Shown: positions 48,277 to 64,000 of the stretch, piece after piece
Position numbering within the stretch: position 1 is the stretch's first letter
Layout: each line of letters begins with the position of its first letter
From: Methylomagnum ishizawai
GTDB lineage: Bacteria > Pseudomonadota > Gammaproteobacteria > Methylococcales > Methylococcaceae
Reading direction: 5' to 3'
DNA: 64,000 nucleotides
Assembly (NCBI RefSeq): GCF_019670005.1
Contig: NZ_AP019783.1
Coordinates: forward strand, 3,312,150 to 3,376,149
The notes under the pieces: model-generated
The model's input: only the letters and a program-made list of their open reading frames with translations
What the model was told of the DNA's origin: nothing
Databases searched by the model: none
Program-made: the position numbers and the translations under genes

Positions 48277-49875
48277 TCAATTTAACTTACGGTCATTCCA
48301 AATTGCTGTTGCAGCATCATATAAAATCAAATCGTTACCATTTTCCTGCTCTATTCGTGAATAAAGCTCATCTCCTAACTGTTCACGCAATATAATTAAT
48401 TTCTGTTCCAGAGTAACATCTGAGCTGCTTGTAGCATTATCGCGCACTGATTCGCATTTAAAGCCAGGGAAGTCAGTTTTAAGCCAAGATTCCAATCGCA
48501 ATATAGACTCATCAAATTGCTCTACCAACCCGAAGAAAGGAAGTTCCGCAAGCGCTTTAAGCGCTCTAGTCAACTCAGGCAATAGCCGCTTTTCAGGACT
48601 GTTAAACCATGCCGCTAAACGCATTGTTTGATAATTCTTAAATAAACGATCATGATCTAAACGCCATTCTACATAGGCCCGCAAGCCAAGCTGTTTAGCT
48701 TGGTTAGGTCCAGGACCATCTTTTTCTTGTCGCCGTTCAAAATTATATACCGAAGAAATACGATCTAAAGGATGTCTTAAAAATAAAACCGGATATATAT
48801 TTGTACCATCAATTTCCGGAGAGCTAATATCAGCCACATGAGAAGATATCGCTATAACTTCCGTTCGAGATTTAATTAATGCAGAAAGCGCCTCAGGAGA
48901 GGCATTGCTACCATTTCCCTCCCATTTAATCCAAGCTGTCCGTCCAAAATTTTTATCTAGTATCCTATCAACAGATGACCCTGCATTTTTATATATATGA
49001 TAATGCACAATAACTTTCCGATTACCTCTTAAATCTGGTTGAATTTTACTTTGAGCATCATTAGAACTTTTTTCATTTTTTTGTTTTTTCAACTCATCAG
49101 CACTCTTATTGTCATCAACTTTTTCAATCCTACCCTCCAAAAAAAACTCATAAATACCCTTTATTTTAGAATACCTTGGCTGTTCCAATCTTTTTTTATA
49201 GTCATTTACTTTCTTATTATAAAGCCCAAAATTAACCACATCGACGGCTCTGGATATTTCTTCTTCACTGGGAAATATTTCAAGCCATGATGCTAACTTA
49301 CGAAGTTGACCCTCTTTATCATCTAGCACTTCTTTATAATTTATAATATAGAATTTTTTATTATTATCACCGAGCGTCTTAAGCAAGTTCTCATAGTATA
49401 CCTGCCAAAGCTGTATGCCAAAATTTTCCGTGAGCTGATGTCGATGGCTAAGAGATTGGGCAACTTCAAACGGGTTTCTAACACATACCAAATACTTCCC
49501 CGACGGAACCAACTCACACCAAAACGGTAAAGTTAAACATAACCTAGGGTCTTTAATAGCCCAAGGCGCATGGCTATCTAGCATATCTAGTAACTCACGA
49601 GTTGAGCCGACTAGCTTTTGATATGAAGGAATGGTATCAATCCTATTCCAAAACTTCTCGTTAAGCGGCCTGGGCCAATCCCAACTTGCATGTGCCAAGC
49701 TAAGTAATTGGTTGTTAATACCTACCACATCAAGACGCTCACAGAAACCTTCTGGATTTGAAGGCTTTGGAGGTAGCATATCCTTTGCTTCCCCTAAATA
49801 ATAGCCTAGTGCACTCAATATACGCGCCACCATGGACGTTCCTGAACGATGCATGCCCAGAATAAAAATACTCAT
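48277..49875 (-). CDS. Tandem sulfotransferase: two different domains in one chain
   Basis: 532 residues. Domain 1 (about 1-245) has FILGMHRSGTSMVARIL (PAPS loop at 7-14) and YLVCVRNPFEVAQSLSHRH. A charged Lys/Asp/Ser linker covers about 250-285. Domain 2 (about 286-532) starts VIVHYHIYKNAGSSVDRIL (PAPS loop about 291-305) and contains PVLFLRHPLDRISSVYNFE. Domain 2 closely resembles the following gene product (VILHYHIFKNAGTSVDRML), so it likely arose by duplication and fusion. Start abuts the stop of the upstream gene. Confidence 0.85.
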   Translation of the reverse strand: MSIFILGMHRSGTSMVARILSALGYYLGEAKDMLPPKPSNPEGFCERLDVVGINNQLLSLAHASWDWPRPLNEKFWNRIDTIPSYQKLVGSTRELLDMLDSHAPWAIKDPRLCLTLPFWCELVPSGKYLVCVRNPFEVAQSLSHRHQLTENFGIQLWQVYYENLLKTLGDNNKKFYIINYKEVLDDKEGQLRKLASWLEIFPSEEEISRAVDVVNFGLYNKKVNDYKKRLEQPRYSKIKGIYEFFLEGRIEKVDDNKSADELKKQKNEKSSNDAQSKIQPDLRGNRKVIVHYHIYKNAGSSVDRILDKNFGRTAWIKWEGNGSNASPEALSALIKSRTEVIAISSHVADISSPEIDGTNIYPVLFLRHPLDRISSVYNFERRQEKDGPGPNQAKQLGLRAYVEWRLDHDRLFKNYQTMRLAAWFNSPEKRLLPELTRALKALAELPFFGLVEQFDESILRLESWLKTDFPGFKCESVRDNATSSSDVTLEQKLIILREQLGDELYSRIEQENGNDLILYDAATAIWNDRKLN

Positions 49876-50664
49876 TTATTTTCCTTTAATCTTTGCAGAA
49901 TAAATTTTAGAGAATAGCCCAAGAGAATATTCGTATAAACGCAAGTCCAACTGATTACGCATTACCAAAGATGTGTAACTTGTCTCATCCAAAAGCCCTC
50001 TAATATATGAGACTTTATCACAAATAGTCAGCTCTTTATCTTGCAACATGTTTTCATGATATTCATTAAAAATAAGATCAGGAAAATCCGCAAAAAGCAC
50101 TTTTTTAAATAACTTTAAAGATTCAGCATAACAATCAACAATACCAAAATACCCAACTTGAGCAATAAACTGGCGGGCACTTTTTAAAGCTTCTTCATCT
50201 TTTCTCAGTCCTTCAGATAGGAAGGCCGATGTGTTGCAATAATCTTGATTAGCAAGATGAAAAGTTTGGAAATCTTCGATTGCATTTTTTCTAAAAAACT
50301 GAAACTTCTCCGCAACATAATCAGAAAACTTCCCAATTGGGATGCCATTTCCTTGTTGCTTTTGCCACTCAAACAAATAAGCCGAATAAGCCCGATCAAT
50401 AGGATGACGTAAAACTATTATTGGAAAAACTTTTAAAAATTTCGATGATGGCAGCGGAGGAACCACTTGATGAGAAGAGAAGGCAACTACATCAGGGTGA
50501 TCCAATATAAACGCCTCCATCTCAAAAGCCGATATCTTTTCTCCACTTTCAGACTTGTCGTAGTTCAGCCAACAGTTACCATATGACTGCTCTAACATGC
50601 GGTCTACAGAAGTACCAGCATTTTTGAAAATATGATAATGAAGAATAACTTTACGTTTAGCCAC
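49876..50664 (-). CDS. Sulfotransferase family 2-like protein
   Basis: 262 residues. VILHYHIFKNAGTSVDRML (6-24) is the PAPS loop of the Sulfotransfer_2 group, and FPIIVLRHPIDRAYSAYLFEW is the 3'-phosphate-binding segment. It is clearly related to the C-terminal domain of the next gene, whose start codon follows its stop directly. Golgi-type relatives in eukaryotes sulfate glycans; the bacterial acceptor is unknown. AT-rich. Confidence 0.82.
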   Translation of the reverse strand: MAKRKVILHYHIFKNAGTSVDRMLEQSYGNCWLNYDKSESGEKISAFEMEAFILDHPDVVAFSSHQVVPPLPSSKFLKVFPIIVLRHPIDRAYSAYLFEWQKQQGNGIPIGKFSDYVAEKFQFFRKNAIEDFQTFHLANQDYCNTSAFLSEGLRKDEEALKSARQFIAQVGYFGIVDCYAESLKLFKKVLFADFPDLIFNEYHENMLQDKELTICDKVSYIRGLLDETSYTSLVMRNQLDLRLYEYSLGLFSKIYSAKIKGK

Positions 50665-50874: not shown

Positions 50875-53800
50875 TTACTGCTCGGCAAAAATGCCTACTT
50901 GCGCCAAAGCTTCCCCCATTAATACCCTAGCCTGTTCGAAACTATACTCAAAAGAAGCAAACTTACGAGCTGCTTCAGAGCACGCATGCCATTTCGCTTC
51001 GTCTTCGTACAACTCAGCGATAGCATCTACCCACGCTTCGGATTTAGCCACTATGCGTGCTTCCAAACCGTCCCGCAAACCAATCCCCTCGGCAGCGACT
51101 GGGGAAATTACGCTAGGTACTCCATAAGCCAAGGCTCCAACTACCTTACCTTTTAATCCAGCTCCAGTTTTGAGCGGGGCGACAAAAACACGGCAAGTAT
51201 TATATACCTCCGCAACATCCTCTACCCACCCCTCGACTATAACATCATCCGCCTTCAAAACGTCAAAACTTTTAGGGGGATTGCTTCCATAAATCCGAAA
51301 ACATACGCCCGGTAAGCGCTTACGAAGCAAAGGCATAACCTCATGCACGAAAGTCTCCACCGCCTCTACATTCGGTGGGTGACCATAACCGCCTAAGAAA
51401 GCAATATCGCTGCGATGACCGAACTCAGGGATATTCTCTGGCACATCAACTACCCATGGGCATTTCGCGACTTGAGAAGAATCCAAGTTATGTGAAAGTA
51501 TGACTGCATGTTCGACTTCATTATAAGAGAGGGTCAAGTCCACTTGCCTCATAACGGCCAACTCGGCATCCCGGGTTCTGAGCGCCTGCGACATGATATT
51601 CTGATCATGGTTCGCGATAGCAAGGCGCAGTTCACGTAAGAAGTGCAAATCCGCGTTATTAAATGCTATCCGTGCCGCAGGGGCATACTCCCTGATTGAT
51701 TCAATATATTTTTCAGCAACCGTATAGCGCGTAATATATACCAAATCAAACTCCCGTCCCCTAGCCTTCAAAAGCTCTAGCGGCGAGGTTGCAAACGGCG
51801 CATAGACACACTCTACCCCCATCCGTTGCAACTCTTCGGTATATCTCCCTAAATAAGCCATATTTTCAGGAATAAACGTGAGCTTGCAGCCAAAGGATTG
51901 CAGCAGACGCATTTCCTGAATCGCTGCGTAGCTACCCGCATCTTTATCCGGGGTCGGCGTAGTAGCATCAATCACTAAAACCCGATACCGAACATTCCTA
52001 TCCTTGTTCAGTTCGACATCAACTCCCACCACACCATTGTAATAACAAGCGGGTACATGACGCTTCTTAAACTTTGGGCGGTTAATTTCTTGGTATCGCT
52101 TCATTCCCGAACTAGTGCTGGTCCCGCTACTCACCCCTTCATAGTGAATGATTTCACAAAACGGCGTATAAACGGTACGCAATCCCTTGGCTCGCACGCG
52201 GAATGCTAAGTCCGTGTCCTCGAAGTAAGCTGGTGCAAACATTATATCAAAGCCGCCTAACTCATCCCATAACGGCTTCGGTAACATAATACAAGCACCC
52301 GAGAGGTAATCTACATCGCGTACATAGTTATAACGGGGATCATATGGGTTAGCCCCCCTTCCGTAATTCCATGGATCGCCAGTATTCCAAACAATCCCAC
52401 CTGCCTCTTGCAAGGTGCCATTCGGGTATACCAGCTTAGCGCCAACCATACCAACCCGCTGCTGATCATGGAATATCGATAACATCTCATCCAGCCAACG
52501 GGCACCTACCTCGGTATCATTATTCAACATTACAATATAATGCCCACGCGCAACCGATCCGCCGCGATTGGAACTCCGAACAAACCCCTGTGCCGACTCA
52601 TTACGTAATAAAGTTATTCCAGAGACCAAATTATTGATAGTTAGAGTCTCATCTTGAGAACCGTCATCGACAACAATCACTTCAAAGCTGACTTTATTAG
52701 GAGAAAGAATCAGCGAAGCAAGGCAGTTATAAGTTACCTCAAACTTATTATGAACCGGTATAACAATGGATACATCAGGGTTATCTATCTTAGGGAATGC
52801 CAAGGAAGGAAGATATCTTGCTCCCTTAGGAGTTTGCATAACCGCATGCAAAACATGTTCATGGGCGTCATAAATCTGGCCCAAACGTCTCCTCAGGGCC
52901 GGCTCAATGGACTCATCCTGACCAAGCAAGGAAAATTGATAGCGCAAAGATTCATAACGTTTTGCCGCGTTCGTAGCAATAAGCTGTCCCCGCAAATGGC
53001 CACCGCCGTATTTAAGTAAAGCGTCCTCCGGGGTTAATATATAAGGTAATGCTTGGACACATTCGCCCAGAATGTCATCGTTTTCATCCTTAACGATGAA
53101 ATGATGGACCCTACTATCAAAAAGACGTGAAGGCAGTGGAATATTGAAACGTGCCGCATCCGGATCCTCCATGGGTTGGTCAGCGCGGCCTTGAGCGACT
53201 ATATCCCTGCCCTCCCAAACACTAATATCTGCTCCAAAAACCGATGGATACTCCCTAGCAAGCCATCCCGTGAGCGATGCTCCATGGACACCATCTATCC
53301 ATGAACGCAGCGTCATATCCAATTCATATTCCAATGCGCCGGGGCTAAGCTCTGATCCTGTAAGGGATTCCTTGATCACAATAGTATGAATCTTGCCATC
53401 CCTACATTCCGGTGGCAATTCGAAAGAAAATCCATGGTCACCTTTTCCGACCTGAACTTCGACTAAATCCGGCCTTTCCTGATTAGCAGACCCAAGCCCC
53501 ATTAAAGTCCCATCGACCCATAGTTCAACTGGAACGTGCTGGTCAGGCCCATTCTTATTCCACACCCATCCATATGCCATACCACCTCGGACCATATCCA
53601 CATTCCCCTCAATCAATGGAGGCTCTGGGGTAGGAACCGAATCCTCCTTAGCAAGAGGACTTGATAATCCGCCATGTGGCATGGCAGTTTGCGCCTGGAT
53701 AGACGGATCGATAGTTTCGGTACCAGGCAAAACACCTTGGAATCCAGCGGACTCCGATTCTAGCAGAATCGTCAAATCCGACGCGGCAGCCACCTCAATA

Positions 53801-54402
53801 CCTCCAGCCGCATCAACAATACCAGATAACTCATCGGTGTCAGTGCCAGCCTTTTCCAAATTAGTGGCACTCGGCAATTCGGTGGCATCTGTGCCAACTC
53901 CAGTGGAAACAGATAAGTTGGTGCCTAAATCATCAGTTGATTTAATTATATTGGGCATGTTTTTTTCAAGCGCATCTTGCTTGGATGTCGTAGATATTTC
54001 ACGTTGGGCCATGTTACGAAAATCCAGCTTATAAGTAGATGGGCCGACAAAAGTATCGGTATCCGCGATACGTACGGCCACCTCAACCTTTTCGGATGAA
54101 ATAATTTGAACAAGCTCCGGATACTCAGCAAGGTGTGCATCCAGGCTTTCGGCAATATTCAAGGAAAACCCATATGGTTGGTCCACCCCAGTTTGCTGCA
54201 CAATATCAGGGCGCAACTGGTCAACATCGAAACCCACAATAACTTGTCCATTAATCAACAACTCCAATCGAAGTTGCTCATCGGGAGATTTATTATTGAC
54301 AACCCAACCCGATAAATATTCTTCATTGATCTTGTCAATATTTCCGGAATATTTTTTATTTCGGCTTTTGGGGTTGTTCGCAGCAAACTTTAACTCGCTC
54401 AA
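50875..54402 (-). CDS. Large modular glycosyltransferase: accessory modules, GT2, GT4-like
   Basis: 1175 residues. Three accessory modules: about 22-125 (YLSGWVVNNKSPDEQL, DQLRPDIVQ, YGFSL), about 268-370 (AYGWVWNKNGPDQHV, NQERPDLVE, HGFSFEL) and a divergent one about 371-460 (LTGWLARE). Modules 1 and 2 are separated by a Thr/Ser/Ala-rich linker. A GT2 domain (about 542-790) has SIVIPVHNKFEVTYNCLAS, VVDDGSQDET and LNNDTEVG (acidic metal motif), plus a late EDTDLAFRVRAKG. The last ~330 residues are GT4-like (FLGGYGHPPNVEA, APLKTGAGLKGKVVGALAYG). Two glycosidic linkages by one polymer-assembly enzyme is the likely role. GC is intermediate. Confidence 0.85.
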   Translation of the reverse strand: MSELKFAANNPKSRNKKYSGNIDKINEEYLSGWVVNNKSPDEQLRLELLINGQVIVGFDVDQLRPDIVQQTGVDQPYGFSLNIAESLDAHLAEYPELVQIISSEKVEVAVRIADTDTFVGPSTYKLDFRNMAQREISTTSKQDALEKNMPNIIKSTDDLGTNLSVSTGVGTDATELPSATNLEKAGTDTDELSGIVDAAGGIEVAAASDLTILLESESAGFQGVLPGTETIDPSIQAQTAMPHGGLSSPLAKEDSVPTPEPPLIEGNVDMVRGGMAYGWVWNKNGPDQHVPVELWVDGTLMGLGSANQERPDLVEVQVGKGDHGFSFELPPECRDGKIHTIVIKESLTGSELSPGALEYELDMTLRSWIDGVHGASLTGWLAREYPSVFGADISVWEGRDIVAQGRADQPMEDPDAARFNIPLPSRLFDSRVHHFIVKDENDDILGECVQALPYILTPEDALLKYGGGHLRGQLIATNAAKRYESLRYQFSLLGQDESIEPALRRRLGQIYDAHEHVLHAVMQTPKGARYLPSLAFPKIDNPDVSIVIPVHNKFEVTYNCLASLILSPNKVSFEVIVVDDGSQDETLTINNLVSGITLLRNESAQGFVRSSNRGGSVARGHYIVMLNNDTEVGARWLDEMLSIFHDQQRVGMVGAKLVYPNGTLQEAGGIVWNTGDPWNYGRGANPYDPRYNYVRDVDYLSGACIMLPKPLWDELGGFDIMFAPAYFEDTDLAFRVRAKGLRTVYTPFCEIIHYEGVSSGTSTSSGMKRYQEINRPKFKKRHVPACYYNGVVGVDVELNKDRNVRYRVLVIDATTPTPDKDAGSYAAIQEMRLLQSFGCKLTFIPENMAYLGRYTEELQRMGVECVYAPFATSPLELLKARGREFDLVYITRYTVAEKYIESIREYAPAARIAFNNADLHFLRELRLAIANHDQNIMSQALRTRDAELAVMRQVDLTLSYNEVEHAVILSHNLDSSQVAKCPWVVDVPENIPEFGHRSDIAFLGGYGHPPNVEAVETFVHEVMPLLRKRLPGVCFRIYGSNPPKSFDVLKADDVIVEGWVEDVAEVYNTCRVFVAPLKTGAGLKGKVVGALAYGVPSVISPVAAEGIGLRDGLEARIVAKSEAWVDAIAELYEDEAKWHACSEAARKFASFEYSFEQARVLMGEALAQVGIFAEQ

Positions 54403-54612
54403 GCAGTCCTCCTACAAACTAAATAATTAAAAAGCCAAGATAGCGATCTATAAAAAACCACGCTTAAAAACAACACACCCATGCCTATTTCAGGTTAACC
54501 GCTCCCATAGCACGGCTTGCGAAATCACATGATATAATATCATGCTTTATTTCGATTTTAGGCATACATCGCCATTTCTACTTTTGGTTTATAATCCTTT
54601 TGTTTTGCTATT

Positions 54613-55545
54613 TTAGCGCTTATATGTGAGCTTGGATTTTTTATTTTGCTGTGTTTTTTGCTTTATTGCCATCGACCCCACATTCAACATCAAAAGACGC
54701 TCCTTGTATATATCCCATACTATCGGCCAATTATCTGGCACAGGCGCCAAAATATTCCTGACAACTTTATTGCGGGACAACTGATAAAATACCTCAGCCA
54801 CGATCAATCCTTCAATTTCCCCCACATGACTCAGTTGGCTAAACGAATTTGTGTTGTGTATGCGATAAAGATATAAATCCTCATCCACATAAACTGGCTC
54901 ACATTCGAATATCGCCCTCAACACGAACTCCCAATCATGCACATAGAGCAATGGCTTGAATTGACCAATCCGTTCGTATAATTCTCGCTTAAACACAAAG
55001 TTTCCAGTTGAAACCGCCATATTCTGGGCCAAAAATCCAAAACTTAAAGCCGGAAAGTTAGCAGAAACCTGATCTGCGAAATCAAACACATTCCTCAGGG
55101 AGTCGGGCAGTCTCCAAGGAGGAATGGCCATATTATTATCATCAATGGCCCTGACCTTGGAAAAGGCGAACTCCGTACTATTAAGTTCCATAGCCTCAAC
55201 CAGTTTAGAAATTCGCTCTGGATGATATAAATCATCCGAGTTCATTAAACTGATAACCGTACCTTTGGATTCCCGGATACCACGGTTAATACTAGCATGC
55301 GCTCCCGAATTCGTTTCATTCTTCAAGAGGAGTACCGACGCAAATCGGGAATCCACTTCGGGAGATGACAGCCACTCCGCAGCCACCTCCAGAGTAGCAT
55401 CGGGCGAACAATCATCCACAATCACAAGTTCCAAATTCGGGTAGGTCTGCTCCGCAACCGACGACAAAGCCGCCACGATATAGCTAGCATGTTTATAGGC
55501 CGGAATAACAACACTGACTAATTCATGGTCTGTTGGGTTAGACAA
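54613..55545 (-). CDS. Family 2 glycosyltransferase
   Basis: 310 residues with the GT-A start VSVVIPAYKHASYIVAALSS, LVIVDDCSPDATLEVA, NRGIRESKGTVISLMNSDDLYHPER (acidic metal-binding motif DD) and the acceptor region HDWEFVLRAIFECEP. Its start overlaps the stop of the WbsX-type gene by 8 bases, so translation is coupled. Donor and acceptor sugars unknown. The 210-base gap after it (54403-54612) holds no gene. Confidence 0.9.
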   Translation of the reverse strand: MSNPTDHELVSVVIPAYKHASYIVAALSSVAEQTYPNLELVIVDDCSPDATLEVAAEWLSSPEVDSRFASVLLLKNETNSGAHASINRGIRESKGTVISLMNSDDLYHPERISKLVEAMELNSTEFAFSKVRAIDDNNMAIPPWRLPDSLRNVFDFADQVSANFPALSFGFLAQNMAVSTGNFVFKRELYERIGQFKPLLYVHDWEFVLRAIFECEPVYVDEDLYLYRIHNTNSFSQLSHVGEIEGLIVAEVFYQLSRNKVVRNILAPVPDNWPIVWDIYKERLLMLNVGSMAIKQKTQQNKKSKLTYKR

Positions 55546-58081
55546 CTCTCAAAACTCCATCGAATAAGGTTTCTATATTTTTTTGCTCAGCACGTTGAAA
55601 CACTCCCATGCGGTATTCCCCCGCATCCAGCTGGGATAACTCCCCATAAAAATGGTAGCCTGCATAGAGCGTAACGGATTCTCCCATTTCCGGAAATGTA
55701 TTCGCTACATCTTCGCGTTTTGCCCTTCCTATGACCGAAGCGAAATAGCGTTTCCGATTATTTACATGCTCAAGGAAAAATAGCGTGGCGCTTTGGGCAC
55801 CCACATGGGCTTCGGGAGCAATGCACCAACCCGCGAACAAAGCACAGCGTCGATGGTCGAGCGTGATATGTTCATGCAGCGCTTGGTTATTTACTGTATC
55901 CAATACCCCATGGCCTCCTCCTTTGACATTATGGTTATATTCCAGTATCGAAGAAGGAATTGGGCTAAAGATCACCCGATTAAATTCCAAAGGGGTTTTC
56001 ATCGAATGTAACCGCCTTAAATATTGCAACGAGCGGTCGCGCGCCAGCAATTGCGATTCAATATCCGATATCCAGTCTTCCAACTCCGAACCGCTCAATG
56101 AACCCTTCGCACGGGCATAATCGGCCAATATCCGCCAATCACTACGTCCGGTTAATCCACGTCGGGTGGATTCAAGATAGGCTCGTCCATGGCGTATATC
56201 CGGCTCCAGGTGGGCACCTTCGGCCCATTCATTCCAAGCATTAATGAATATAAACCTTTCGCCGGCAGGCAATGCGTTACGGGTTTCCTCCACTATCGCA
56301 CGCAACCACATCTCATAGGTTTGCGGCTCCGAGTCCACAAACAGGCTGGCCCGTTTACCACGCCGCGGGGTATTATCCCAACCAGGAATAATTCCACGAT
56401 AGCGTCTATAAGGGGCTGGTTCCCTCAGCATCACTTGGATAGCGTACTGGCGATAATCATAAATCCCACCACTGAAGTCCTTATCCAAATCCTCTATTTC
56501 ATTGGTTACAGTCTCTGCCGGGGAGATATTCAAAGGCGGAAATTCAATCGAAGAATCGAAACCACTTCCATAGGGATCGTTAAACCCGGTAAATTCGACA
56601 GCCGCCAGATGGATATTAGGCAATCCCTCGTCCGCACAGATTTTGCGCCATACCGCAGCCGTGCGCTTTGGATCGGGAAAAAGATTTACCCGATATACAA
56701 CCAACAGTGGCGCACCATTAATTTGAATATAGCGGGGGTCTTTGAGTATCGGAATAACATCCCGGATGAACGCAACATCCGTTTCCGGGGTATGTTCTTG
56801 TTTCAACAAGACCTCGTCTTCCGAACCATCCCACCGTTTGGACCAACTTTCATTCGCCCAGCAGATACAAAATGGAAAATCGGGGCTACCGGATTTAAGC
56901 ATATCATCCAGGGGACGCTCCAGGATGCGGCGTCCCGCGAACCAATAATAATAGTAGCAAAAACCATAAATTCCGTATTCCCTGGCGAGCTTGGCTTGGG
57001 CTTCACGCAATTCCGGCAGGCGAAGATCATAAAAACCCAATTCGCCCGGTATATGGGGTTGTTCATGGCCCGGAAAAGAAGGTTTGGCCTGGGTAACATT
57101 GGTCCATTCGGTAAACCCAGGCCCCCACCAAGCGTCGTTTTCAGGGATAGGATGGAATTGAGGCAAAAAGAACGCGATTGCCTTCACATTAGCCGCGACC
57201 TCGTTCTCGACCGGGTCCTTGTCCAAAAAGGTTTCCACCGCTATTTTCTTGGCCGATCCCGACATAGGTACCGGTTGGGGATTGCACCACCCCAATAAAT
57301 CTCCCACGCTGGGCCATTTCCCCTTCAAATTGACCAATACGAGATTGGTTCCCTCGATCTGCACTAATAATTCGCAGGGGATATCGCGGTCCAATTGTTT
57401 CAGTTCGGGAGGGAGGCTAACACGGTTCCATTTGAGGTGGAATCCGCAAGCGGGCAAGGGAACGCCCGCGCTGGCCGAAACATCGTTACGGCTGAATACC
57501 GTATAAGCCGTACCAATGATCCGGCTCCGTAGCAAAACCCTGATTTTCAGGGGGTCGGATGGTTTGGCAAGGTTGACAGCCCAGCCTTGGATACCGTTTC
57601 CATCGATGATATCGAGGCAACCGAAATACCCTTGTTTAGCGCCCTGGATGCCATCAAATGAAATATATTGAACCGCCACCCCCAGGCTTTCCCGCAATTC
57701 TTCAATATCCAGGTAATCGGCGGCATGGCGCAGGTGATCGACCAAACTGCGGGATATTTTCGCCTGGTCCTCGAGGCGATATGCCAACGCCACGGACCCG
57801 GCATCCGACTCGAATTCGATCATGCCCTCTTGGTCGAGGTTTTTCGCCTTCATCAGCAACAGGAAGTCGGTTCCCCTGGCCGCCTCGGTTTGTGGATAGA
57901 AGCCCGAGCTATCGCGGTTGAAGCGGTAGATATTCTTGATGAGGTTCTTGCGGACCCCTGTGACCTTTATCGATTTCACAGGCGCATCGGCATCGCCAAT
58001 CGTGCCCGCGATCACCAGTATTCCTTTCACCAACAAAGCCAATTGGATTTCAGCTCGCAATCCCTTTTCTTGCTCAGTCAT
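55538..58081 (-). CDS. WbsX-like (GH99-like) protein with accessory module
   Basis: 847 residues. The central region (about 299-640) has the WbsX signature: IAFFLPQFHPIPENDAWWG, GFTEWTNV, YGFCYYYYWFAGRRILE, CWANESWSKRWDG and FINAWNEWAEGAHLEPD. These proteins are glycosyltransferase- or GH99-like enzymes of O-antigen and capsule loci. Residues about 150-262 form one copy of the accessory module (IQGWAVNLAKPSDPL, CGFHLKW). The first 130 and last 200 residues are unassigned. Neighbouring GTs support a polysaccharide role. Confidence 0.85.
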   Translation of the reverse strand: MTEQEKGLRAEIQLALLVKGILVIAGTIGDADAPVKSIKVTGVRKNLIKNIYRFNRDSSGFYPQTEAARGTDFLLLMKAKNLDQEGMIEFESDAGSVALAYRLEDQAKISRSLVDHLRHAADYLDIEELRESLGVAVQYISFDGIQGAKQGYFGCLDIIDGNGIQGWAVNLAKPSDPLKIRVLLRSRIIGTAYTVFSRNDVSASAGVPLPACGFHLKWNRVSLPPELKQLDRDIPCELLVQIEGTNLVLVNLKGKWPSVGDLLGWCNPQPVPMSGSAKKIAVETFLDKDPVENEVAANVKAIAFFLPQFHPIPENDAWWGPGFTEWTNVTQAKPSFPGHEQPHIPGELGFYDLRLPELREAQAKLAREYGIYGFCYYYYWFAGRRILERPLDDMLKSGSPDFPFCICWANESWSKRWDGSEDEVLLKQEHTPETDVAFIRDVIPILKDPRYIQINGAPLLVVYRVNLFPDPKRTAAVWRKICADEGLPNIHLAAVEFTGFNDPYGSGFDSSIEFPPLNISPAETVTNEIEDLDKDFSGGIYDYRQYAIQVMLREPAPYRRYRGIIPGWDNTPRRGKRASLFVDSEPQTYEMWLRAIVEETRNALPAGERFIFINAWNEWAEGAHLEPDIRHGRAYLESTRRGLTGRSDWRILADYARAKGSLSGSELEDWISDIESQLLARDRSLQYLRRLHSMKTPLEFNRVIFSPIPSSILEYNHNVKGGGHGVLDTVNNQALHEHITLDHRRCALFAGWCIAPEAHVGAQSATLFFLEHVNNRKRYFASVIGRAKREDVANTFPEMGESVTLYAGYHFYGELSQLDAGEYRMGVFQRAEQKNIETLFDGVLRVV

Positions 58082-58323
58082 GTCATTACCCGAATGTGCG
58101 CTCTATATTCAAAACCCAAGGACGAACCGGAAGAACACGCGCGAATATCCCATTCGCCAGCGCCGATCCTAGCCGTATAGTCCTGATCAAAATTTTCCGG
58201 GGGAAGCCATCCCACCCTGCCCTTCCAGGCACCGAAGCGGGAATCAAAACGAGGGCGATCCATGCGGGATGGTATGGGCAAGGCTAATAGATAAACCTTG
58301 CCGACCTCAGATGCCTTGTTGAA

Positions 58324-59442
58324 TTATAACCATCGACTAATCACCGGACCCATGGGCAAGGGATCGTCGATCAAATCCTTGGCGTGACGGTGGTGGGATT
58401 CGAATATCGAGGTGATCGCCGATTCCCCCCCTTCCTGGTAAATCCGATACCATATCTTCCAGTGATCCCCACCTATGTCCTTCTTGCCCATGGCCTCGGC
58501 GGCCTCGATGGCCCGTCCGCCATTGATCACCTTTTTCCTCGCATGTTCCTGAGAGCGTAGGAAATATTCGCGGTAATGCAAGCCCAGCCGTAAACCCCCC
58601 GCATAGGATTTTATATCCTGGCCGCGAAAAGTCGCCACATGGTTGCCCTGGCCTATTTCCAAAAACGGATGGCTCCTAACCACAATCTTGGAGGAATTGT
58701 GGGAAAGACGCTCCCGGTAACGGAACCGCCGGAACATGGGTTGCTGTTTTTCCAGTGCATAAAACTCGCGGGTGGGCGCGTACTGCGCCTTGGGCAATAA
58801 TAGCGCATTCACGGTTTCCGGCACGGCCGCCAGTATTCCGGCCAAAGGTTTTTCGGCACAGAGGAATTCGTCGGCGTCGATGGGAAATACCCAGGCCACC
58901 TCGGGCCACAGGCTGCAAGCGACCCGGAATCCCGCCGTGGTGAACTCGGACTGCAAATGCCCGACGATGGGATCCTCCATGACGATGACCACGGCATCCT
59001 TGAAGGTCGCGGCGAAAAACCCGATTTCCCCCCGGGTGTTGTCGGTCGATAGATTATCGATCAACACGAACCTGCGGAACCCCAAACTATAATGCCATAG
59101 CAAGTTGATGAAAATTATATCTTCTTCGTCCTTGACCATCGACACATAGGCGACTTGCGGCAGGGGCGGGCCGTACCATACCAAGCGGTGCTGTCCGGCG
59201 AGGTCGCTCCCCGCCAAGTCCTGGGAGAGCACCCACATCCGGCTATCGCGGTCGATACCCTCGATGTTGAGTAATTCGGCATACCGGCCCATCACGAACA
59301 GCGCGTAGGCCAACATTTCCTTCATCTGCGCGTCCTGCCGGATGGCCTCGGTGGCCTCGCCATAAAGCCGGGGCACCTCTTCCCAACGACCGGCTTGCAG
59401 GGCGGACCGGGCCAAGCCCAGATATTCCTGTAACCCGCTCAT
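58324..59442 (-). CDS. GT2-like glycosyltransferase with N-terminal helical repeats
   Basis: 372 residues from ATG 59442; a TTG start at 59493 would add 17. Residues about 1-75 are TPR-like helices (YLGLARSALQAGRWEEVPRLY). The catalytic part starts VAYVSMVKDEEDIIFINLLWH and has LIDNLSTDNT and FPIDADEFL (Asp-x-Asp type metal site), matching the Glyco_tranf_2_4 group. NHVATFRGQDIKSYAGGLRLGLHYREY and the following HARKKVINGG are also typical. Acceptor unknown. The 240-base gap to WbsX (58082-58323) holds a doubtful short ORF only. Confidence 0.82.
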   Translation of the reverse strand: MSGLQEYLGLARSALQAGRWEEVPRLYGEATEAIRQDAQMKEMLAYALFVMGRYAELLNIEGIDRDSRMWVLSQDLAGSDLAGQHRLVWYGPPLPQVAYVSMVKDEEDIIFINLLWHYSLGFRRFVLIDNLSTDNTRGEIGFFAATFKDAVVIVMEDPIVGHLQSEFTTAGFRVACSLWPEVAWVFPIDADEFLCAEKPLAGILAAVPETVNALLLPKAQYAPTREFYALEKQQPMFRRFRYRERLSHNSSKIVVRSHPFLEIGQGNHVATFRGQDIKSYAGGLRLGLHYREYFLRSQEHARKKVINGGRAIEAAEAMGKKDIGGDHWKIWYRIYQEGGESAITSIFESHHRHAKDLIDDPLPMGPVISRWL

Positions 59443-59504
59443 CGCCACCACCCCGCGCGGCCCCGCCCGGCCCGGATTGCCATCGTCAACCAAATTTCCA
59501 GCAT

Positions 59505-60467
59505 CTATTTATGCGATCCTTCCGGCAACATCCATCGGCCACTAAAAGGCGTTCCGGGGATTTCATGGGGACCGAATTTGAAGGACTCTTCCGGTCCGCC
59601 GTTGCTCAAGGCATTCCTGAGATGGAAACTGCCATTGGAACCGTCATAGCATCCGACACCATCGACGCCATCCCCGTTCCAATCCCCGGCGATGGGCAGA
59701 CAGCCAGGGCCGACCCGGTCCAACCGCAATTTATGCTGGAACGGCCCCTCCGACAAATTGTCGCGCAAATAGAAGGTAGCGGTGGCGGGGTCGAACAAGC
59801 CGATGCCGTCGACGCCGTCGCCATTCCAATCCCCGGCGACCGGCAACCACCCCTTGCCCTGGCTGCCGAACGCGAATTCGAGTTCGGGCAAGGCGGGCGC
59901 GGTAAGTTGGTTCCGCAACATGAATACACTGCGGTCGGGATCGTAAAAGCCCACGCCATCGAGGCCATCGCCGTTCCAATCGCCGACCAGGGGTATCCAA
60001 TTGGAATCATGGGGACCGAAGGGAAATTGTATCTCGGGTTCGCCGATGGAATCGCTGCGCCATAGGAAGAAGTACCGGCTGGGGCGGTGGAAAAAGCCGA
60101 TGGATTCGATCCCGGTCCCCAACCAATCCCCGTACAAAGCGAAGGATACGCCGTCGAGCCGCCAAGGCAGCAAGCGCCCCACACTGCCCCGGTAGGGGTC
60201 CCTGATGACCGCCACGCCGGGATTCTGGAACAGCAAACCCACCGTGCTTTTCGGCTTGGCCGTCAGGTTATCCAGCAGGAATACATCGCGGATCCGCAAG
60301 GGAGCCTGGGGTGCGGCCGAGATGGACGCCGCCATTTCCGCTTCCAGCAATTCGGCATAGGGCGAGGGCTGGGGGATTTCCGGCGGGGGTGGTTCGGGAA
60401 GGACGGTCTTGTCCTTGGTTTTCCCTTTGGAAAACGGAAAAGCCTTAAAAATATCCTTGAGACTCAT
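59505..60467 (-). CDS. FG-GAP/VCBS-like repeat protein
   Basis: 320 residues without a signal peptide. N-terminal ~75 residues are Lys/Pro-rich. Then at least four ~45-residue repeats with GDWLGTGIESIGFF, GDWNGDGLDGVGFYD, GDWNGDGVDGIGLFD and GDWNGDGVDGVGCYD. The DxNxDGxD core is a calcium-binding loop like those of integrin FG-GAP/beta-propeller repeats. It lies among glycosyltransferases, so a carbohydrate-binding or scaffold role at the surface is possible, though the export route is unclear. Confidence 0.75.
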   Translation of the reverse strand: MSLKDIFKAFPFSKGKTKDKTVLPEPPPPEIPQPSPYAELLEAEMAASISAAPQAPLRIRDVFLLDNLTAKPKSTVGLLFQNPGVAVIRDPYRGSVGRLLPWRLDGVSFALYGDWLGTGIESIGFFHRPSRYFFLWRSDSIGEPEIQFPFGPHDSNWIPLVGDWNGDGLDGVGFYDPDRSVFMLRNQLTAPALPELEFAFGSQGKGWLPVAGDWNGDGVDGIGLFDPATATFYLRDNLSEGPFQHKLRLDRVGPGCLPIAGDWNGDGVDGVGCYDGSNGSFHLRNALSNGGPEESFKFGPHEIPGTPFSGRWMLPEGSHK

Positions 60468-60546
60468 CGGGCTTCCGGATTGGTTGGGCTACGCGGCACG
60501 GCGCTGGGTGGGTTCGGGAGCATAGGCGGTCCCGTCCCCGTCGCGC

Positions 60547-63500
60547 TCAGCCACCGCCGACAGCCCGCTTCGCCACCCCCAGGGTGGTTTCGGCGGTTTC
60601 CACGGCGACGTCGGCGCTCAAATCATAATAATCTTTCAGTATCTCGGGAGGCTCCCAACCAATCACCGCCGCCGCGGGAAACGCGGGTTCGGCCTCGAAC
60701 AGCTTCATCAGTGTCCGGTTGATACGCCGGGGGCTGGCGGTCAACGGCAGGAGCCGACCGGCCTTGGTACGCCGTATCCGCTCGCCGACCGCGCCAATAT
60801 CCAGGGCCAGGGGATAGAGTCCGTTCTGCCAAGCCTCGGACAAGGCGAAACAATAGGTTTCGGGCCAAGGACTCAGGAACAAGGCGATCCTGGCTTGGCT
60901 GGCCTCGATCAGGCGCGGCAGGTCTTCGCGTTGATAAGCGCCATAGATCGACACGTTACCGAACCGGCTGAACGCCTGGTCATCTCCGGTATAGCCGATA
61001 ATCACGAACCTCAAGGGCAGGCCTTCCTTTTCGGCGTTGCGGACGCAGCGCAACAGGATATCGCTGCCCTTATGCACGCCTATCGCGCCGATGACCGCCA
61101 CGGTATAGGGTTCGCCCTTGCGCACCGCCGGGATTTCGCAGCGCGGTTCCAGATGCGGCAAGACCCGGAGATTCGACAGCGGGAAATGCTCGCGGAAACG
61201 TTGCGCCACATCCTCGCTGGGCGCGAAGATCCGGCGGGCCTGGCCCAGGACTTCGCCATAAACGGCCCGCCACGCGCCCACATCGCTGCCGAACTCCGCG
61301 TATTTGTCGTCGAGGTCGTGTTCCAAGCCATTGAGCTTCACACAGCGGGTACAGGCTTCCGGGGTGAATTGCGACGCGCCACAGTAATAGCCGGTTTCGT
61401 CGATCATATTGATACGCGGACAAATCGGCAGGTAATCGTGCGCGGTGAAATCGTAGGCCGTCCCCAACAGCCGGGGCAATTCCCAAATGCGCTTGGGATA
61501 ATGCATGGTTTGATGGTAATGGATATGCCAAACGCGGAGATCGCGCAGGTCCTGGGTCAGCCGCTCCCAATCCTCTGGATACCGATAATGAATCGTATAA
61601 GGCAGGCCATGGCAGACCAATTGCCAGCGCTCGGCGGTTACCGACATCAGTTCCAGTACCGGCACACCTTCCCGCGCCAAACCCGCCGCCAAGTAATCCG
61701 CCGCGCTTTGGGTGCCGCCGCCCAGGCTATGGATCACGAACAGCATATAGCGCGGGGCGTGTTCCCGCAGCAAGGCTTTGGAAACCGGGTTACGCGCCTG
61801 GGCCATCGGGTCTTGGACGATGAAGCGCTGGATGGTCGCGGCATAATCGGGATAAAGCCCGTTCAACTTGGCCAGGTTGCGCTGAATCTGGTCCTTCTTG
61901 TTCTCGGCGAAGGAAACCCCGCCCTCATGCTCGACAAACACATCACAGGCCGCCACATGCCGCCATCCCAAGGTGGCGGCGCGTAGGCAGAAATCGTTTT
62001 CCTCGCCATACCCCTTGCCCCATTGGGCCTCGTCGAAATAACCGATCTCGTCCAAGGTATCGCGCTTGATGTACATACAAAACCCCACCGCCGTGGGGAT
62101 ATCCACCACCAGCCCAGGGTTGGATTCCGCGAACAAGGCGTCCAAACGCTCGACCGAAAGACCGGGCGGGATCGGGTTTTCCCGGCAAAATCCGGGGAAA
62201 CTGCAAATCGTGGCGTTATTGGACAAAGGCGTGGCGGTACCGATGTTTTCCGCATGGTAAGCGGCCCCCCGCAAGCGATCCAGCCAAGCGCCCGCCACCG
62301 CCGTATCCGAGTTGAGCAAAACCACGTCGCGGCCCGGATGCAAGCGCATCCCGCGGTTCACGGTTCCGACGAACCCCAGATTGTCCTTGTTTTCCAGATA
62401 GGTGAACCGCCGCGCCTGGGCGAGGTTCCTCAGTTCGGCGCTCAAATCGGCATCGGGGCTGGCATCGTTGATGACCACCAATTCCATCGGCGTTTGGCAG
62501 TGGGCGGCGGCCAGTACGCCGGCAATACAGCGCAGCGCGTCTTCCCGCCCCAGATAAACCGGCACGATCACATCCACGATGGGCTGGCGGTCGTGGTGGC
62601 CGGGCAACTTGACCAGGGAAGCCAGTTGTAGATCGATCCGGCCAGGGATACGCTTGGCCCGGCGCAGTTCGTTCGTCGCCTTGGCGATGATTTGGGTACG
62701 CAGCCAAGTGGTGACATCCTCGTCGAAGGCCAGCCCGCCCGCCAAGCTTTGCCAACGCGAACGGTCGTTCAAAATCTCGGCGAGGGTGGTCAGGGAACGC
62801 AGGGCGATGTCGTAAGGGGTATAGACAATGCTCGGACCGAGTACCCGGAGTTCGGTGCCGGCCAGGCGCAGGTCCAAGGTGAGGCTGGCGCATTCCCAAC
62901 TCTGCGGGCGTATCCTGAATTCGAAACCGCTACGGCTGCCGGGCTGTTCCGCGATATCGGGGCGGACCTGGTCGGCTTTGATGACGGCGGTATGGAGGCC
63001 GTTCACGAACAAATCCAGGGCTACCGGCCGGTTGGGGGCGCTGGTATTGACCACCCAACCACTGACCCGCTCGACGCCCGTGGTATCGACATAACCGCGA
63101 TAGCCGGCCTGGATTTTAAGCGTCTGGCCTAGGCGTTTGGGCTGCCCCGCCTTGCCCACCACCTCGATTTGGATCGAATGGGGCTGGGTATCGAACACCT
63201 TATCCGGCAGGGTTCCCCGGAAATCATAACGGCCATCGGCCTGTGCCAAGCCGATCTGGCCGTCGGGAATCTCGCCCTCCCGTTCCCCGTCGATCAGGAG
63301 GCGCAAATACGGGCGCTGGTTCTTGGTGGAAGCGCATCTTTCGCGCACCCAGCCCACCAAATAGCCATCCTCTTCCAAGCGGAAATCGCCATCGTACTCC
63401 CCGCCGCCCAGTTGGATCGGGCTACCTGGCAATTCATTGCCGGTCTCCAAGCAGTGGAATCGGTATTGGCGGGTGGCTCCGTTCAACAAATCCTCGTCCG

Positions 63501-64000
63501 GTTGCCAAACGAAACCGCAATTGCCATAGGCCCGCAACTCGCTATCGACCCGCGGCAGGTGGGCCTGGGTTTCGCCGACCTTGTCGCCGTCCACCGTCAC
63601 GGCCAATTTGACGGGATGGTGTGGCCGGTCGGGATGGAAGGCCCACCCGAAAACCCGGCCCGCCCGGATACCCTCGACTTTACCCAGCAACCGGGCGGTC
63701 TCCCGTTGAAGGGCCGGGGCATCGCCTAACTGCGGACCGAAGAGCGCGACCGCATAACCTTTGAGGATGGTTTTTTCACCCTCGTAGCCCGCGAAAATAG
63801 CGCCCAGCCAATCGCCCAAGGTGTGGTGTTCTGCCAAGGGCAGTTCAGGGAGTTGGAACGGTGCATGGCGGGTTTCACCCACCTCCAGTATCCATACCCG
63901 ATCCCGGCGCCAATGGGGGGCCAGCGACCGGGAGAAGAAATGCAGGAATCCGCCTTCCAGCAAAGCCTTCATGGTCTCGGGAAAATTGCCGGACCTCACT
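60547..64000 (-). CDS. Large modular glycosyltransferase (5' end beyond window)
   Basis: At least 1150 residues; the frame is open to the right edge, so the true start is outside (a GTG at 63999 is not trusted). Numbering from that codon: three accessory modules at about 105-205 (VFGWAFHPDRPHHPV), 205-300 (LVGWVRERCASTKNQRP) and 300-400 (VSGWVVNTSAPNRPV, ADQVRPDIAEQ, GFEF). GT2 domain about 474-720 (DVIVPVYLGREDALRC, VINDASPDAD, LNSDTAVAGAW, GYGEENDFCLRAA). GT4-like domain from about 750 (YMLFVIHSLGGGTQSAADYLA, GAIGVHKGSDILL, SPWPETYCFALSEAWQNG). Architecture parallels the 1175-residue enzyme at 50875. Confidence 0.85.
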   Translation of the reverse strand, partial: VRSGNFPETMKALLEGGFLHFFSRSLAPHWRRDRVWILEVGETRHAPFQLPELPLAEHHTLGDWLGAIFAGYEGEKTILKGYAVALFGPQLGDAPALQRETARLLGKVEGIRAGRVFGWAFHPDRPHHPVKLAVTVDGDKVGETQAHLPRVDSELRAYGNCGFVWQPDEDLLNGATRQYRFHCLETGNELPGSPIQLGGGEYDGDFRLEEDGYLVGWVRERCASTKNQRPYLRLLIDGEREGEIPDGQIGLAQADGRYDFRGTLPDKVFDTQPHSIQIEVVGKAGQPKRLGQTLKIQAGYRGYVDTTGVERVSGWVVNTSAPNRPVALDLFVNGLHTAVIKADQVRPDIAEQPGSRSGFEFRIRPQSWECASLTLDLRLAGTELRVLGPSIVYTPYDIALRSLTTLAEILNDRSRWQSLAGGLAFDEDVTTWLRTQIIAKATNELRRAKRIPGRIDLQLASLVKLPGHHDRQPIVDVIVPVYLGREDALRCIAGVLAAAHCQTPMELVVINDASPDADLSAELRNLAQARRFTYLENKDNLGFVGTVNRGMRLHPGRDVVLLNSDTAVAGAWLDRLRGAAYHAENIGTATPLSNNATICSFPGFCRENPIPPGLSVERLDALFAESNPGLVVDIPTAVGFCMYIKRDTLDEIGYFDEAQWGKGYGEENDFCLRAATLGWRHVAACDVFVEHEGGVSFAENKKDQIQRNLAKLNGLYPDYAATIQRFIVQDPMAQARNPVSKALLREHAPRYMLFVIHSLGGGTQSAADYLAAGLAREGVPVLELMSVTAERWQLVCHGLPYTIHYRYPEDWERLTQDLRDLRVWHIHYHQTMHYPKRIWELPRLLGTAYDFTAHDYLPICPRINMIDETGYYCGASQFTPEACTRCVKLNGLEHDLDDKYAEFGSDVGAWRAVYGEVLGQARRIFAPSEDVAQRFREHFPLSNLRVLPHLEPRCEIPAVRKGEPYTVAVIGAIGVHKGSDILLRCVRNAEKEGLPLRFVIIGYTGDDQAFSRFGNVSIYGAYQREDLPRLIEASQARIALFLSPWPETYCFALSEAWQNGLYPLALDIGAVGERIRRTKAGRLLPLTASPRRINRTLMKLFEAEPAFPAAAVIGWEPPEILKDYYDLSADVAVETAETTLGVAKRAVGGG

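Follow-up and report, generated by a model that had tools for sequence, protein, structure and literature searches.

A repeated module of about 95 residues was found in seven copies across three sugar-polymer enzymes, all encoded on the minus strand of the window, by which we mean the whole analysed stretch of 64,000 nucleotides. The module is best explained as an accessory Ig/FN3-like beta-sandwich forming a new family that is distantly related to Big_7-type bacterial Ig domains. It is widespread and unnamed in the libraries searched, a new family inside a known kind of domain. The enzymes that carry it are best explained as part of a cluster resembling that for exopolysaccharide II (EPS II, wgd/wge) of Sinorhizobium meliloti, with a type I secretion system (T1SS) and an RTX protein. 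For the function we favour, with a probability of roughly one half, that the module tethers enzymes to their glycan substrate and to each other or the inner membrane, in a TarS-like manner.

The first host enzyme is a glycosyltransferase (GT) of 1175 residues (GT1175, 50875..54402, minus strand) with three modules, a GT2 domain (residues 545-757, PF00535 8e-19) and a GT4 domain (residues 999-1134, PF13692 2e-21). Its copy 1 lies at 54022..54351 (residues 18-127; external profile E 3e-13, iterated profile 1.9e-20), copy 2 at 53323..53613 (residues 264-360; external profile E 3e-23) and the divergent copy 3 at 53074..53307 (residues 366-443; external profile E 8e-4), all on the minus strand. The WbsX protein of 847 residues (55538..58081, minus strand) carries one module at 57338..57628 on the same strand (residues 152-248; external profile E 5e-9, iterated profile 4.4e-14) and PF14307 at residues 302-638 (Pfam 6.8e-136). 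In the third host, GT1150 (60547..63999, minus strand), Pfam identified GT2 and GT4 domains besides three modules, located on the minus strand at 63409..63687 (copy 1, residues 105-197; external profile E 3e-15), 63139..63396 (copy 2, residues 202-287; external E 1.8, iterated 2.5e-10) and 62824..63102 (copy 3, residues 300-392; external E 1e-13). The preliminary description had assigned GT1150 a length of 1150 residues. This has to be corrected, as the window edge cuts the frame, which extends to 1326 codons in total and gives about 1323 residues from an ATG. That the modules are joined to unrelated catalytic domains was borne out by the Pfam assignments to GT2+GT4 (PF00535, PF13692) and WbsX (PF14307). 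Their position N-terminal to the catalytic domains holds for the enzymes of the window but not for the family, in which the module is C-terminal in sulfotransferases and in certain further proteins.

To avoid circularity, the external profile was built solely from 51 copies belonging to other organisms, and E values were scaled to 5,000 proteins. Against this profile six of the seven copies scored 17-80 bits and GT1150 copy 2, the most divergent one, 6.7 bits; the top score among 900 shuffled sequences derived from the three proteins was 4.5 bits. When one protein was left out, modules from the remaining two recovered the first two copies of GT1175 and the third of GT1150 with E <=2e-9, and the remaining four copies were recovered weakly or missed. 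The seven segments proposed earlier profiled unevenly: five had an external E <=5e-9 and GT1175 copy 3 had 8e-4, but GT1150 copy 2 was weak at 1.8. For this copy E values of 3e-10 and 3e-8 were obtained with iterated profiles, which contain it or close orthologues of it. Together with its orthology clade (100/97), these profiles support GT1150 copy 2 as a true module. The sevenfold repeat described in the three enzymes was in this way upheld for all copies by the external profile, the iterated profiles and the clustering with orthologues.

Three other segments have a likeness by eye (GW ... RxDV ... G[FY]xF) to the module, namely the C-terminus of the WbsX protein (window 55541-55870) and parts of WgeB and WgeF of locus L129. 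The WbsX segment (GWCIAPEAH...REDV...GYHF) was rejected as an eighth copy, with an hhalign probability of 0.6% and no profile match. The GW look-alike in WgeF gave a profile E of 25 or worse and that in WgeB was not matched in the profile search. None of the three has profile support; they are possibly a remote sister domain. The Wge and Wgd names at L129 were assigned by comparing gene order and content with published work (PMC3233446, PMC12542648), as the record lists products alone.

We used AlphaFold2 to predict the fold. With 58 aligned copies, GT1175 copy 2 was modelled at pLDDT 93.3 and pTM 0.82 as an Ig/FN3-like domain of seven strands with short helices between them. In a tandem model of GT1175 copies 2 and 3 (pLDDT 89.6) the divergent copy 3 kept the strand order of copy 2. 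The models, which cover these two copies, agree with the beta-sandwich suggested in the preliminary description, and unrelated folds were not seen. Among the structural matches listed, the best were generic Ig/FN3-like domains, often accessory in carbohydrate enzymes, with best Z values of 7-9 (top 9.0 at 3.1 A), identities of mostly 3-15% and a best Foldseek E of 0.015. The residues conserved in the alignment (G, GW, RxD(L), GxGxxGF) probably occupy core or turn positions and would then be structural. An aromatic platform is typical for many carbohydrate-binding modules; no conserved one stands out in the module alignment.

Searches of Pfam-A and NCBIfam gave no match to the module regions at E<=1 with whole proteins and scattered single ones at E<=10. 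No solved structure matched the module in a PDB sequence search, and our literature search found no description of it. The earlier statement that the module belongs to no named family thus stands within Pfam-A, NCBIfam and the PDB sequences, with a remote tie to Big_7 (PF17957) only. The two appear to have the Ig-like beta-sandwich fold in common, judging from the models. Two secreted relatives that the module profile detected (L161 and L164) exceed the Big_7 cut-off across the same stretch, and hhalign of the module family against one of them gave a probability of 77%. At the Big_7 cut-off of 24.1 bits, in contrast, none of the 13 copies in the genome of the window was matched, and the genome-wide best of 14.6 bits fell outside the modules. 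The module also differs from Big_7 by its GW/RxD/GxGxxGF signature and by its use within cytoplasmic enzymes.

The module enzymes stand in a row of minus-strand genes. Two sulfotransferase-like genes adjoin them at 48277..50664 (PF13469 3.7e-15; PF03567 7.7e-8), both without a module, and a GT2 protein, equally without a module, is encoded at 54613..55545 (PF00535 1.5e-30). The segment 58324..60467 encodes a GT2_4-type protein of 389 residues (PF13704 1.3e-8) and an FG-GAP-like protein of 320 residues, whose PF13517 match (3.4e-5) falls under the curated cut-off of that family. The latter (59505-60467) has repeated GDWNGDG motifs and sits between the module GT and the GT2_4 gene. Just beyond the window edge, immediately upstream of the 1326-codon GT and in the same orientation, follow genes for an RTX protein (PF00353 3.5e-21), an HlyD protein 32% identical to WgdB, a T1SS ABC protein 36% identical to WgdA, and a GT4 (L132:802-6226).

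A similar arrangement of T1SS ABC, HlyD and a small RTX protein beside GT genes is found in the EPS II cluster of S. meliloti (wga/wgd/wge, formerly exp), in which WgeE (formerly ExpE5) carries the module with a profile E of 1e-25. WgeE was listed as a putative membrane protein in a proteome study of 2025 (PMC12542648). WgdA and WgdB (ExpD1 and ExpD2) are the exporters of WgeA (ExpE1), which binds calcium; mutation of expD blocks EPS II, which requires WgeA together with its T1SS (PMC1403797). The two loci differ in gene order and enzyme set. On the EPS II replicon the profile finds the module solely in the tail-anchored WgeE, whereas at the window locus it is found in transferases, with WbsX and sulfotransferases added. 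These additional enzymes suggest a glycan other than the galactoglucan of EPS II. A comparable pairing is known from Vibrio vulnificus, where the RTX and T1SS genes of cabABC-brp are co-regulated with EPS genes, adjacent to them judging by locus tag, and the RTX protein CabA is a secreted biofilm-matrix protein (PMC9888727).

WgeE-like proteins consist of a module, a linker and a C-terminal hydrophobic helix predicted as membrane anchor. Genes for T1SS ABC and HlyD were found near 13/13 of the tail-anchored module genes detected in other genomes versus 1/40 control GT2 loci (p 2e-11), counted in fetched stretches of 6 to 10 kb either side of the gene; the 13 proteins are phylogenetically non-independent, with 6 from Acetobacteraceae and several close pairs. 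A T1SS link for the module family as a whole was weak (10/72 loci against 1/40 in the control, p 0.09) and was not retained. In the subclass of three-module GTs, a T1SS adjoins in the genome of the window and in two others (G003, G037), and an RTX gene in a further one (G009). Only the tail-anchored subclass shows a strong T1SS association; among the three-module GTs it is discernible. A WgeE-like tail-anchored protein was not found in the genome of the window, where all 13 copies belong to other architectures.

These 13 copies are spread over seven proteins. Besides the three enzymes described above, the carriers are a methyltransferase, a GT2_4/GT92-GT61 protein and two proteins with two modules each, one of the GT2_4 type and one without a catalytic domain. 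In the sampled genomes the module was detected in 9/38 of the family, 13/370 of the class and 40/397 of the phylum Pseudomonadota, which are probably underestimates because the profile was built from the copies of a single genome, that of the window. Relatives occur among Acetobacteraceae, Rhizobiaceae, Methylosinus, Gallionellales, Paraglaciecola, Patescibacteria and Clostridia. Phage records gave no match to the module consensus at E<=0.1. The clostridial copies lie behind signal-peptide-like N-termini, beside SH3_3 or 3D domains, and the module therefore acts outside the cell too; use mostly inside the cell is the best explanation for Pseudomonadota. Proteins of Clostridia and Patescibacteria that look secreted or are membrane proteins, and that have SH3_3, 3D or Kre9_KNH domains next to the module, were noted at L123:2946-4406, L125:4741-6636 and L114:5713-9159.

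Among 59 sampled module proteins of other genomes, GT2 (PF00535) was matched in 25, GT4 (PF13692) in 14, a sulfotransferase domain (PF03567) in 5 and Hint_2 in 3, and acetyltransferase, radical SAM, TPR and AIDA models were matched singly. Partners elsewhere include WbsX, RgpF, GT61 and a methyltransferase, and more Hint_2/GT4 fusions and TPR proteins were present among the named loci. The common thread of the partners is that they are enzymes acting on surface glycans. Proteins joining the module to Hint_2 (hedgehog/intein-like) were observed at L120:4147-7626, L098:2296-7971, L105:3106-6285 and L096:4783-6516, with GT4 in two of them and AIDA adhesin repeats in that of L120. Such fusions unite an adhesin-like part, a possibly self-processing domain and a transferase on a single chain. 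Sulfotransferase-like proteins of 320-340 residues with a C-terminal module were seen at L159, L177, L204, L155:13265-14227 and similar loci.

Two-module proteins without a recognised catalytic domain recur across several genera and are possible scaffolds. Proteins of this kind with 300-400 residues and a low-complexity or coiled-coil-like tail were noted on the second contig of the genome of the window (L012:12796-13998) and at L144, L029, L184, L185 and L127.

A tree was built from 40 modules. In it, each copy of the three-module GT clusters with its positional counterparts in other genera and not with its sister copies. Copy 1 groups with L036 at 98/88, copy 2 is supported at 100/97 and copy 3 at 97/84, values that are rough because the bootstrap had not fully settled. 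The long-branched first copy of L043 is an exception without settled placement. The clustering by position argues that the three-module array is old and that each position has been kept distinct.

We consider tethering and assembly the best reading. It is favoured because the module rides on enzymes with a common polymeric substrate and on small anchored or coiled-coil-like proteins, and because TarS offers a precedent. The homology and fold of the copies, their T1SS neighbourhood and the conservation position by position in the three-module GT count in its favour as well. The module is appended, singly or in tandem, to enzymes that build or decorate surface glycans, and small proteins with a coiled-coil-like part or a tail anchor, WgeE among them, have it without an enzyme domain. 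It would hold the enzymes on the shared polymeric substrate and bring them together or fix them at the inner membrane, and so raise local concentration and processivity. Successive transferases and sulfotransferases could thereby work along one chain. In TarS, an intracellular GT2 of Staphylococcus aureus, stacked tandem Ig-like domains of the CBM type mediate trimerisation and affect processivity (PMC5156392). The likeness lies in stacked Ig-like domains (CBM48/CBM68-like) on an intracellular GT2 with a polymer substrate; the difference is that these domains are C-terminal in TarS. TarS was not seen among the PDB sequence matches or the structural matches listed, and as the latter list is incomplete this does not count against the comparison. 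The proposal of the preliminary description, that the module binds the growing glycan or docks enzymes together, is consistent with the partner enzymes and the stand-alone, apparently membrane-anchored copies. Its idea of the locus as a single assembly machine gains support from the T1SS/RTX/GT neighbourhood held in common with the EPS II operon, and we still regard it as an inference. Against tethering stand the generic structural matches, the structural-looking residues among which no aromatic platform stands out, and the weak T1SS link over all module loci, and the secreted SH3_3 and 3D neighbours would equally fit a mere spacer.

Ranked after this reading is docking or oligomerisation alone, in which the copies would pair mutually or with tail-anchored and coiled-coil-like module proteins, gathering enzymes at the membrane without contact to sugar. 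It is a tentative alternative of clearly lower probability. Proteins that lack a catalytic domain, whether WgeE-like or with two modules, would suit it well, as would the trimerisation role in TarS and the conservation position by position in the three-module GT, but many genomes have a single module enzyme with no scaffold copy detected, and the secreted copies of Clostridia, with SH3_3 or 3D domains as neighbours, lack a partner of this kind.

A spacer role is ascribed to many of the FN3 or Big modules that occur in secreted enzymes. That the Ig-like module likewise merely sets the distance between catalytic domains would agree with its generic Ig/FN3 fold, its mostly structural conserved residues and its varying copy number. 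We nevertheless consider this unlikely and rank it third, since one would not expect an inert spacer to be paired with just a membrane anchor, or to be conserved position by position in the three-module GT, and in several proteins the module lies at the extreme C-terminus. Least of all do we expect that the cluster glycan becomes attached, while still in the cytoplasm, to the RTX protein that leaves through the adjoining T1SS: RTX and T1SS genes do adjoin module GTs in the genome of the window and in the tail-anchored subclass, and EPS II does depend on WgeA and its T1SS (PMC1403797), but no evidence of a glycosylated RTX protein was found and a secreted matrix protein such as CabA is a simpler account of the RTX/EPS pairing (PMC9888727).

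A bolder reading is a module-based assembly line made up of transferases, sulfotransferases and a WgeE-like tail-anchored scaffold, which would have one Ig-like docking domain in common and be physically coupled to the T1SS and the RTX protein. This reading is rather improbable; if true, it would account for the dependence of S. meliloti EPS II on a protein secretion system. The module itself is a widespread domain so far missing from the description of polysaccharide enzymes in bacteria, whose annotation usually ends at the catalytic domain, and it marks out a recurrent type of T1SS-RTX-glycan locus. WgeE, an uncharacterised component of a long-studied operon, is now tied to a family, and its role becomes testable.
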